From Keratinibaculum paraultunense (GTDB lineage Bacteria > Bacillota > Clostridia > Tissierellales > Tepidimicrobiaceae): a stretch of 64,000 nucleotides of DNA. The stretch is taken from contig NZ_CP068564.1 in NCBI RefSeq assembly GCF_016767175.1, positions 372,001 to 436,000 on the forward strand, read 5' to 3'. A program made the position numbers and the translations under genes. Below are positions 8,914-32,300 of the stretch, one piece after another. Within the stretch, counting starts at the first letter, position 1. Each line of letters opens with the position of its first letter. The notes beneath the pieces are model-generated. The model was not told the DNA's origin. It did no database searches and saw only the letters and a program-made list of their open reading frames with translations.

Positions 8914-8996
8914 TTATCCACAAGTTTATAGGGAGATTAACAATAATCCACAGAGTAATCCACATTATCCACAAAAAATCAATTATGTTATCCACA
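8914..8996 (+). promoter_or_regulatory. Cluster of five DnaA boxes upstream of hpf
   Basis: Three perfect TTATCCACA boxes (8914-8922, 8965-8973, 8988-8996) and two TAATCCACA boxes (8944-8952, 8956-8964) all point the same way within 83 bp. Boxes 8956-8964 and 8965-8973 abut. The following about 100 bp (9001-9100) are nearly pure A/T. This lies in the roughly 400-bp gap between the flagellar operon and hpf, which otherwise holds only the hpf promoter. The sites should bind DnaA. Whether this is a titration site, a regulator of hpf, or an origin-like element is open. Confidence 0.85.
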
Positions 8997-29220: not shown

Positions 29221-30231
29221 ATGACTATAACATTAGCTATTGAGACTTCATGTGATGAAACCTCTTGTGCTATTTTACGAGATGGAAGGGAAATACTTTC
29301 AAATATTATATCTTCTCAAATTGAAATTCATAGAGAATTTGGTGGAGTAGTGCCAGAAGTAGCATCTAGAAAACATATTGAAAATATCAATATAATAATT
29401 CAACAGGCATTAGATGAAGCTAACATAAATTTTCATGATATAGATTTAGTTGGAGTTACTCAAGGGCCTGGACTAGTAGGTGCTTTATTAGTTGGAATAT
29501 CTACAGCAAAAGCTATAGCCTATGCTATTGATAAGCCTATAGTTGGGGTAAATCATATTGAAGGGCATATATGTGCAAATTATATTGACCATAAAGATTT
29601 AGAACCTCCTTTTACATGTTTAGTAGTATCAGGAGGGCATACTTATTTAGTCCAAGCTAAATCCTATACCGAATATGAATTAGTAGGTAGAACCAGAGAT
29701 GATGCAGCAGGTGAAGCTTTTGATAAGGTGGCTAGAGCATTAGGATTATCATACCCTGGTGGACCTTTGATAGATGAGCTATCTAAAAAAGGAGATAAAT
29801 ATGCTATAGATTTTCCACGAGTATATTTAGAACAAGATAGTTATGATTTTAGTTTTAGTGGATTAAAAACTGCTGTACTAAATTATTTAAATCAAAAGAG
29901 ACAAAAGAATGAAGATATAATAATAGAAGATGTAGCTGCATCTTTTCAACAATCAGTAATAGAGGTTCTTGTAGAAAAGACTATAAAGTTAGCTAAAGAG
30001 AGAAAATCAGATAAAATAGTTATGGCTGGTGGAGTAGCAGCTAATGAAGGATTACGAAGTTTAATGAACTATAGAGGAAAAGAGGAAGGAATTAAGATAT
30101 TATATCCTTCTAGAATATTATGCACAGATAATGCCGCTATGATAGGTTCTGCTGCTTATTTTCATTATATGGAAGGAGATATTTCAAATTTATATTTAAA
30201 TGTAGAGCCAAATTTAGAGTTAAAAGGATAA
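29221..30231 (+). CDS. tsaD: tRNA t6A threonylcarbamoyltransferase TsaD
   Basis: TsaD transfers the threonylcarbamoyl group to A37 of tRNA. The 336-residue protein begins [20 protein letters not shown] and has the metal motif HIEGH (H112 and H116), [11 protein letters not shown], and [19 protein letters not shown]. The ATP-binding rear part ([14 protein letters not shown] and [13 protein letters not shown]) is complete. The start ATG 29221 has AGAGGTG. It ends the t6A operon. No hairpin terminator is evident; the convergent ABC-F gene lies beyond a DnaA-box cluster. Confidence 0.97.
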
Positions 30232-30243
30232 ATACAAACAGAT

Positions 30244-30382
30244 TTTTCCACATTATTTCCACAAAACAAATTTGGTTGACAATAAAAATATGTGGATAAT
30301 GTGGAAAACTCCTTATAAACCACAATAATTGGACAAACTAATGGGGATAAATTTGTGGATTTTGTGTATAACTTGTGGATAA
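30244..30382. promoter_or_regulatory. DnaA-box cluster between tsaD and the ABC-F gene
   Basis: Two perfect TGTGGATAA boxes (30291-30299, 30374-30382) lie among one-mismatch variants: TGTGGAAAA (30300-30308), TGGGGATAA (30342-30350), TGTGTATAA (30363-30371), TTTTCCACA (30244-30252), and weaker ATTTCCACA (30255-30263) and TGTGGATTT (30354-30362). They fill the whole 161-bp gap between convergent genes, so they are unlikely to be promoter elements. From memory, B. subtilis has a DnaA-box cluster in the equivalent gcp-ydiF gap. Confidence 0.85.
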
Positions 30383-30392
30383 TATGGGGAAA

Positions 30393-32300
30393 CTATTCTT
30401 CTGTTAATTTTATCCATTGATCATAAAGAGCATTAATTTTAATTTCTAGAGTTTCCCTTTTTTTAGTCAGCTCAATTACTTTTTCTGGTTTATCATATAT
30501 ATTTGGATCGCAAAGTAGTTTATCTATTTCTTTCATATTTGTTTCTTTTTGTTCAATCATTTTTTCTAACTTTATTATTTCCTTTTTCTTTTTTTTCATA
30601 GCTTCTAATTTTTCTCTTTGTTTTTTTCGTTCTAATTTTATTTGAGTTTTTGTTTTATAATCGTCATATTCTTTAATTGCTACTTCATTTTTCTTTTCTA
30701 AATAATAATTATAGTTACCTAGATATTCTTTTATGCCTTCTTCAGTTAATTCAAAAACTTTATTCACCACTTTATTTAAAAAATATCTATCATGGGATAT
30801 AACAAATAAAGTGCCTTCGTAGTTCATTAAAGCGTCTTCTAATACTTCCTTTGAATCTATGTCTAAATGATTAGTAGGCTCGTCCATAAGAAGAAAATTA
30901 GCATTGGAAAGCATCATTTTTAGTAAAGCTAGTCTAGCTCTTTCACCACCGCTTAATTCACTTATTTCTTTAAAGATATCATCTCCAATGAATAAAAATT
31001 TACTTAATAGAGAGCGAATTTCATAATAATTTAGTTTAGGATTATCATCCCATATTTCATCTATTACGGTTTTATTTAAATTAAGTTTAGTTTGTTCTTG
31101 ATCGAAATATCCAATATGGACATTATGTCCTAAGGATATAGTTCCACTATCATAAGGAATTTGATTTAATATAATTTTAAAAAGAGTAGTTTTCCCAACT
31201 CCATTAGGACCAATTAATCCTACTTTTTCTCCTCTATATATGGCAAAGCTTATATCTTCAAGTAGCTTATGTTCATTAAATGATTTATTTAAATTTTCAA
31301 CTCTAAGTACATCTCTTCCACTTTTTATATTTGGTTTAAAAGTTATTTTAGCTTTTTTATTGTTTATAGGTTTATCTATTAATTTTATTTTATCTAACAT
31401 TTTTTGTCGAGATTGAGCTTGTTTTATATAACGGCTATCGCCATAATTGGAAAATCTTTTTATAATTTCTTCCTGTCTTTTAATTTCTTTTTGTTGATCT
31501 TCATATTGCTTTTTTAATAGTTCTATGTCTTTTTTTCTTTGTTTCATATATTGAGAGTAATTCATATTATATATTTTAATCTCTTTATTTTCTAATAAAA
31601 ATATTTTTGAGACTATATTATCTAAAAAGTATCTATCATGGGATATAACAAGTATTGCTCCAGTATATTCTTTAAGATAGTTTTCTAACCAATTGATAGC
31701 TTCTATATCTAAATGATTTGTAGGTTCATCTAATAATAGCAAATCTGGTTTTTCTAGTAACAATTTAGCTAGAGACAATCTAGATTTTTGACCACCACTT
31801 AATATATTTACTCTTTTATCCATATCTTTATCTTTAAATCCTAAACCTTTTAATACACCTTTGATTTCTGATCTATATCCATATCCATTGTTATTATCAA
31901 ATTTTTCCATAATGTGAGCATAATCTTCCATTAGTTTTTCTAATCTAGTAGAATTAGTTTTACTTCCTTCTATGCTGATTTCTTGTTCTAATTTTCTTAG
32001 TTTTTTTTCCATTTCAAGTAAAGGTTTAAATACATTTAGGCACTCGTTAAATAATGTGTCATTGCCACTTATATAAGTATGTTGCTTTAAATAACCTATT
32101 TTTAAATCTTTTCGAATATATATTTCACCTGCATCTTTATGAGTTTCACCTGCTAATATATTAAAAAGAGTAGTTTTACCAGAACCATTAAGCCCTATAA
32201 GACCAATTTTATCACCATTTTCTACTGTAAAACTTATATTTTTTAGTATTTCATTTACCCCATAGGATTTAGATATATTATTACACGAAAGTACTATCAT
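30393..32300 (-). CDS. ABC-F family ATPase (YdiF-like)
   Basis: A 635-residue protein with two ABC domains and no membrane part, as in ABC-F factors that act on the ribosome. N-terminal domain: Walker A GLNGSGKTTLFN, signature LSGGQKSRLSLAKLL, Walker B LLLLDEPTNHLD. C-terminal domain: Walker A GPNGVGKTTLFK, signature LSGGERARLALLKMM, Walker B LLMDEPTNHLD. The charged interdomain linker (QMKQRKKDIELLKKQYEDQQ-like region) and a lysine-rich C-terminal coiled coil of about 90 residues are present. The place beside tsaD and near rex matches ydiF in B. subtilis. Housekeeping rather than antibiotic-protection function is more likely. Confidence 0.93.
   Translation of the reverse strand: MIVLSCNNISKSYGVNEILKNISFTVENGDKIGLIGLNGSGKTTLFNILAGETHKDAGEIYIRKDLKIGYLKQHTYISGNDTLFNECLNVFKPLLEMEKKLRKLEQEISIEGSKTNSTRLEKLMEDYAHIMEKFDNNNGYGYRSEIKGVLKGLGFKDKDMDKRVNILSGGQKSRLSLAKLLLEKPDLLLLDEPTNHLDIEAINWLENYLKEYTGAILVISHDRYFLDNIVSKIFLLENKEIKIYNMNYSQYMKQRKKDIELLKKQYEDQQKEIKRQEEIIKRFSNYGDSRYIKQAQSRQKMLDKIKLIDKPINNKKAKITFKPNIKSGRDVLRVENLNKSFNEHKLLEDISFAIYRGEKVGLIGPNGVGKTTLFKIILNQIPYDSGTISLGHNVHIGYFDQEQTKLNLNKTVIDEIWDDNPKLNYYEIRSLLSKFLFIGDDIFKEISELSGGERARLALLKMMLSNANFLLMDEPTNHLDIDSKEVLEDALMNYEGTLFVISHDRYFLNKVVNKVFELTEEGIKEYLGNYNYYLEKKNEVAIKEYDDYKTKTQIKLERKKQREKLEAMKKKKKEIIKLEKMIEQKETNMKEIDKLLCDPNIYDKPEKVIELTKKRETLEIKINALYDQWIKLTEE

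Follow-up and report, generated by a model that had tools for sequence, protein, structure and literature searches.

A DnaA-box cluster 3' of tsaD in Keratinibaculum paraultunense and its conservation in Bacillota

Is the cluster of DnaA boxes in the short gap between tsaD and an ABC-F gene of Keratinibaculum paraultunense the same element as the DnaA-binding cluster in the corresponding gap of Bacillus subtilis, and if so, how widely is it kept and what would it do? The question arose from a preliminary description of a 64,000 bp stretch of the K. paraultunense chromosome (the whole stretch that was analysed, hereafter the window), which pointed to one of the few genomic DnaA-binding clusters of B. 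subtilis in its gcp-ydiF gap. That cluster is real; in the sections available of Smith and Grossman (2015; PMC4447404) it is region 4, located downstream of gcp and ydiF and comprising 10 sites. The same sections list the gap as one of the eight regions bound most strongly by DnaA in vitro, which are the only ones also detected in vivo, and give Kd values of 0.15 uM for ATP-DnaA and 0.33 uM for ADP-DnaA with a 16-fold preference for the ATP form at 55 nM.

We report that the cluster, which probably restrains replication in B. subtilis, looks ancient and widely kept in the phylum. DnaA-box clusters of this kind are already known; what appears to be new is the phylum-wide conservation 3' of tsaD, independent of the ABC-F gene, of which we found no report in the open-licence literature, although the original studies of the B. 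subtilis clusters may contain one. Whether non-oriC sites titrate DnaA is a matter of debate, and in B. subtilis such clusters have so far been regarded as a species trait of modest effect.

The gap between tsaD and the ABC-F gene

In the window, tsaD (29221-30231, + strand; TIGR03723, 448 bits against a cut-off of 296), encoding a t6A synthase subunit, is the final gene in the order tsaE-tsaB-rimI-tsaD. The gene facing it (30393-32300, - strand) encodes an ABC-F ATPase that is ydiF-like by context; NF000355 matches above its cut-off, the EttA models score higher yet fall under their own cut-offs, and the assignment reaches the broad family only. The convergent arrangement and the gap of 161 bp (30232-30392, no strand assigned) were borne out by the gene coordinates, and the gap is filled by three perfect TTATNCACA DnaA boxes and three one-mismatch boxes, one perfect box more than described before. 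The clustering itself stood: among 5000 dinucleotide shuffles of the gap none had three perfect boxes (mean 0.021) and none had six boxes within one mismatch (mean 0.48).

On the tsaD strand, a one-mismatch box (TTTTCCACA, 30244-30252, +), with a box at the equivalent place in several relatives, is followed by a weak DnaA-like site with two mismatches (ATTTCCACA, 30255-30263, +), the TCCACA portion of which is conserved among relatives. All other sites are on the - strand. Specifically, a perfect box (TTATCCACA, 30291-30299) is abutted, at a 9-bp step, by a one-mismatch box (TTTTCCACA, 30300-30308), and 51 bp from the former lies another one-mismatch box (TTATCCCCA, 30342-30350) that is perfect in many relatives. 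A 12-bp step leads to a weak site with two mismatches (AAATCCACA, 30354-30362; a better box in several relatives), a 9-bp step to a perfect box (TTATACACA, 30363-30371) and an 11-bp step to the last perfect box (TTATCCACA, 30374-30382). The DnaA of K. paraultunense contains GGRDHTTVMHA, which we take to be the usual motif that reads DnaA boxes. The single Rfam match in the gap scored 18.1 bits, below the gathering score of 114, so that no RNA element is supported.

The window as a whole holds 12 perfect boxes where 3.9 were expected, and 109 one-mismatch boxes, which is the chance number (109.4 expected), so weak boxes alone mean little. In the genome (one contig, 2,307,997 bp) there are 127 perfect boxes; the reversed-pattern control gave 45+63=108 matches, and since this is not far below 127, a box on its own is near the background level. 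What stands out is the clustering: runs of at least three perfect boxes in 161 bp occur at only five places, two of them flanking dnaA (one upstream, one downstream), one 5' of hpf, one 3' of cwlD and one in the tsaD/ABC-F gap, and when 127 sites were placed uniformly any such run was seen in 12 of 2000 trials.

Conservation 3' of tsaD

Two or more perfect boxes within 250 bp, inside the first 600 bp 3' of tsaD, were counted as a cluster; some loci did not reach 600 bp (L017, for instance, has 157 bp) and were retained in the counts. For the order of K. paraultunense 61 genomes were searched and 58 tsaD loci used, leaving out G002 and G010 (paralogue-level matches only) and G051 (cut-off match). 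A search of 299 genomes of the phylum added 67 new loci, namely the best 29 minus the duplicates L072 and L074, plus 40 picked at approximately one per family among the matches listed, and 50 loci were used from 200 searched genomes of the class of G121, presumably Bacilli. The resulting Bacillota set comprises 175 genomes from 97 families, in which sampling favoured TsaD proteins resembling that of the window and families with less similar TsaD are under-sampled.

Within the order the cluster is present in 17 of the 19 families, and gaps with a convergent ABC-F gene typically carry 2 to 5 perfect boxes. A layout recurs: on the tsaD strand there is often a weak box at the gap start and one near position 11, while on the opposite strand a box near position 59 is followed by another 9 bp on and by a third 51-52 bp from the first, with additional boxes in the distal part at 12-, 9- and 11-bp steps. 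The conserved columns in an alignment of 23 gaps are mainly DnaA boxes. In one genus of family f5 (L050 and L053) the entire tsaD/ABC-F gap is an 18-bp hairpin lacking boxes, which makes these loci naturally occurring clean deletions of the array; L030, grouped under that family code as well, carries three perfect boxes. In f17 and f19 (L043, L047, L060) the array is rearranged: instead of the tandem arrangement seen in f1 there are inverted pairs, in which for example a TTATGCACA box faces its own reverse complement.

The preliminary description had proposed a scan of this gap in many Firmicutes. Across the 175 loci, 376 perfect boxes lie in the first 600 bp 3' of tsaD, where shuffles predict 5.4, and the cluster is present in 114 loci (0.05 expected in shuffles), 79 loci having at least three boxes. 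By family it was found in 65 of 97, and in 48 of 78 outside the order, so the conserved gene context that had been surmised holds, with enrichment reaching far past Bacillus and the clostridia related to the window. The true motif ranked first among 560 letter permutations (376 matches, median 5), and the one ranked second (107) overlaps abutting boxes. No cluster was found within the first 600 bp in 32 of the 97 families, and the cluster is thus dispensable; 65 is at the same time a lower count, because in f45 and f163 the cluster lies farther downstream, still ahead of ABC-F and with other genes intervening, and in f131 approximately 1.2 kb downstream of tsaD.

Two further samples were inspected. 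Among the relatives of one Peribacillus TsaD, mostly Bacillaceae (the named set), the cluster is present in 73 of the best 80 of 375. In 24 genomes, including some with tsaD boxes too far apart to count and some without boxes, a pattern of tandem perfect-box pairs matched 78 places, compared with 2 in the reversed control, and 13 of these pairs (10 of the 24 genomes) fall within 1 kb 3' of tsaD. As a control gene we used prfB, with flanks from 29 of the 61 searched genomes: there were 0 perfect boxes in 17.4 kb 3' and 1 in 17.4 kb 5', and no cluster in any of the 29, on which grounds a general box richness of intergenic DNA was rejected. The 7.0 kb around E. coli tsaD, the sole outgroup locus beyond the phylum, contain no perfect box.

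The association with the ABC-F gene was compared in the 170 loci having at least 1200 bp downstream. With a convergent ABC-F gene within 1.3 kb the cluster is present in 50 of 59 loci, and with none nearby in 62 of 111; a link to ABC-F alone was therefore rejected. The cluster is best retained in the tsaD/ABC-F gap and survives beside tsaD when ABC-F is absent.

The boxes are strongly biased in orientation, 323 perfect boxes in the 175 loci being opposite to the tsaD strand and 53 on the same strand. The most frequent spacings between opposite-strand perfect boxes, by family count, are 9 (26), 21 (18), 52 (16) and 12 bp (12), and rarer ones are 73 (11), 42 (9), 63 (7) and 22 bp (7). Periods were scored with one vote per family and distance (in the named set one vote per locus), and with R figures that are inflated by the relatedness of the loci the best periods were 10.5 bp in the order (R 0.87), 10.5 bp in the named set (R 0.68) and 10.8 bp in Bacilli (R 0.53), each above the 99% null. 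For the phylum outside the order and Bacilli the best period was 11.1 (R 0.47, null 0.39), and R was 0.28 at 10.5. The spacings point to boxes on approximately one face of the helix, with weak phasing outside the order and Bacilli.

A FastTree phylogeny of TsaD only (154 rows, no more than three from any family; unrooted) requires at least 25 changes of the cluster label; the mean for shuffled labels is 46 and none of 500 shuffles was as low. On both sides of the deepest fork the cluster is in the majority (39 of 73 and 59 of 81). An old presence followed by many losses would fit this unrooted tree, parallel gain being the other possible history. Recurrence beside the same gene in 65 of 97 families with recurring spacings suggests long-lasting selection.

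Proposed role and alternatives

In both K. paraultunense and B. subtilis several boxes are packed in non-coding DNA outside oriC, and in both the flanking genes are tsaD (gcp) and ABC-F, with their 3' ends towards the boxes. They differ in that K. paraultunense has six sites within one mismatch, while the B. subtilis count of 10 is by position matrix, and in that the K. paraultunense cluster is known from sequence alone. The locus of B. velezensis (L254) has two perfect and four one-mismatch boxes, B. subtilis itself being outside the compared loci. The other non-oriC clusters of B. subtilis are likewise intergenic boxes and a presumed DnaA sink.

Both sites are also origin-proximal. The distance from dnaA is 0.17 genome lengths in K. 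paraultunense, and the summit in B. subtilis is at 628 kb, which corresponds to approximately 0.15 of the genome. In 20 of 24 genomes (G308 and G452, without an exact length, and G504 and G543, with the place of tsaD unlisted, were left out) the tsaD-dnaA distance ranges between 0.065 and 0.33 genome lengths with a median of 0.17 (K. paraultunense 0.174). Of the chromosome-position-linked control suggested earlier, an origin-proximal location (scored for tsaD only) thus stands and a fixed distance does not. Moreover, tsaD is co-directional with the fork in 19 of the 20 genomes, G093 being head-on.

For B. subtilis, the parts consulted of PMC5295017, PMC13220808 and PMC11019786 describe early initiation upon removal of six clusters outside oriC. 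The gcp-ydiF cluster would be one of the six, since the count from the eight strong regions in the sections of PMC4447404 implies so. According to the same excerpts of PMC5295017, the phenotype is strong only after loss of all six, and clusters with significant roles have not been identified there; one cluster returned at various places gave partial rescue (PMC5295017 and PMC13220808, in part). The role is called inhibitory, through sequestration, in passages of PMC11019786, and approximately 10-fold overproduction of DnaA caused no over-initiation according to a portion of PMC13220808. The earlier statement that the cluster helps restrain initiation therefore agrees with the six-cluster removal, and the B. 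subtilis evidence for its importance, as far as these excerpts go, is mixed.

Against this background we regard it as fairly probable that the tsaD cluster belongs to the gcp-ydiF kind and is a DnaA sink or sensor of old origin, passed on mostly by vertical descent, that limits initiation. DnaA, probably preferentially ATP-DnaA, would assemble cooperatively on the nearly in-phase boxes of this non-origin platform. Being only one sixth of the genome length (0.17) from dnaA, the site would be duplicated soon after a round of replication begins, and bound DnaA would leave less free DnaA for oriC after initiation, such that early re-initiation is damped. The clusters at tsaD, hpf and cwlD may act jointly in sequestering DnaA. 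For K. paraultunense we infer DnaA binding, titration and the effect on initiation from these comparisons. This one element lends itself to deletion, relocation and comparison across many species, and the lineages without it provide a ready list of natural knock-outs.

A bolder version, which we consider improbable, is that the tsaD-side cluster dates back to the common ancestor of the phylum, in which no other non-oriC DnaA site is kept so widely, and represents a helically phased, ATP-DnaA-selective counterpart of datA (a sensor or off-switch), not merely an interchangeable sink. If this were true, its role would have passed to other clusters or to protein regulators in the lineages that lost the site. 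The E. coli sites datA, DARS1 and DARS2, which sit in gene contexts other than tsaD, resemble the cluster in being non-coding, non-origin DnaA-box sites that tune DnaA. They differ in requiring IHF or other factors, as stated in parts of PMC13220808, and in the text available of PMC12371093 box accumulation near oriC is reported for E. coli and Salmonella only.

Among the alternatives to a sink or sensor, DnaA in the gap could act primarily as a transcription roadblock, for tsaD read-through or for the convergent transcripts, with any effect on replication being secondary. The genes converge with no intrinsic terminator (a G+C-rich hairpin with a T run) found in 30150-30450, the cluster-less f5 gap is a short hairpin and the strand bias is strong, all as a roadblock would have it; yet the cluster is kept in the 62 loci that have no convergent ABC-F gene nearby, many of which then have a co-directional gene, and terminator-like hairpins, as scored by a crude finder, are not rarer with the cluster (28 of 113) than without it (10 of 61). 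Replacement of a terminator by the cluster thus has no support, and we consider the roadblock unlikely.

We rate as equally unlikely that the array is a catalytic control site, analogous to datA or DARS, at which a phased complex alters the nucleotide state of DnaA. Near-helical phasing of the boxes and the ATP preference at the B. subtilis gap (PMC4447404, in the sections cited) speak for such a site; against it, B. subtilis is described in the available part of PMC13220808 as being without Hda, IHF and the datA and DARS loci, with regulators of its ATP/ADP balance not known.

A secondary or relict replication origin, suggested by the dense boxes, is very improbable: the GC skew, scored over the window as 16 blocks of 4 kb, stays positive throughout and does not switch sign at 30.3 kb, the gap is not in a dnaA/dnaN neighbourhood, dnaA being located where the contig starts and having a cluster on either side, and alternative origins are judged unlikely for B. 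subtilis in excerpts of PMC11019786. Chance or base composition, with which only the one-mismatch count of the window agrees, is refuted by the gap shuffles, the runs in the genome, the 175-locus enrichment and the prfB controls.

Other clusters of DnaA boxes

The hpf cluster (window 8914-8996), between flagellar genes and hpf, has three perfect boxes, all on the + strand, and several one-mismatch boxes. In the order a cluster is located 5' of hpf in 26 of 30 loci and 3' in 0 of 30, and in the phylum sample it was found in 2 of 29 loci, so it was rejected as being as general as the tsaD cluster. The third non-origin cluster of K. paraultunense is positioned 3' of cwlD and adjoins rpsI (L069 2000-2132; G000:C1:1922289-1922420), and cwlD-like genes of three more genomes of the order (L288, L292, L294) also have a box cluster 3'.

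Near tsaC, which is also a t6A gene, boxes cluster in 6 of 24 genomes (L398, L406, L412, L413, L415, L417), all Bacilli and 0 in the order of the window; a tie between DnaA and t6A genes was rejected as not general. The boxes at hpf and tsaC make it plain that tsaD is not the sole place of this sort. In L412 (G513) the tsaC-side cluster occurs in a genome without the tsaD cluster.

A recurrent cluster in Bacilli (L277, L280, L281, L282 and L301) adjoins an ORF of protease size; at four of these loci the gene for a 159-aa protein, presumably rlmH (yydA) and matching a published B. subtilis cluster, is also next to it. In our samples the rlmH/yydA-type (four Bacilli genomes) and tsaC clusters seem confined to Bacilli, whereas the tsaD cluster is not. 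Finally, in G351, where the tsaD cluster is missing, a stretch of 121 bp (L299 2000-2121) approximately 84 kb from dnaA contains five perfect boxes, a site that possibly substitutes for the tsaD cluster.
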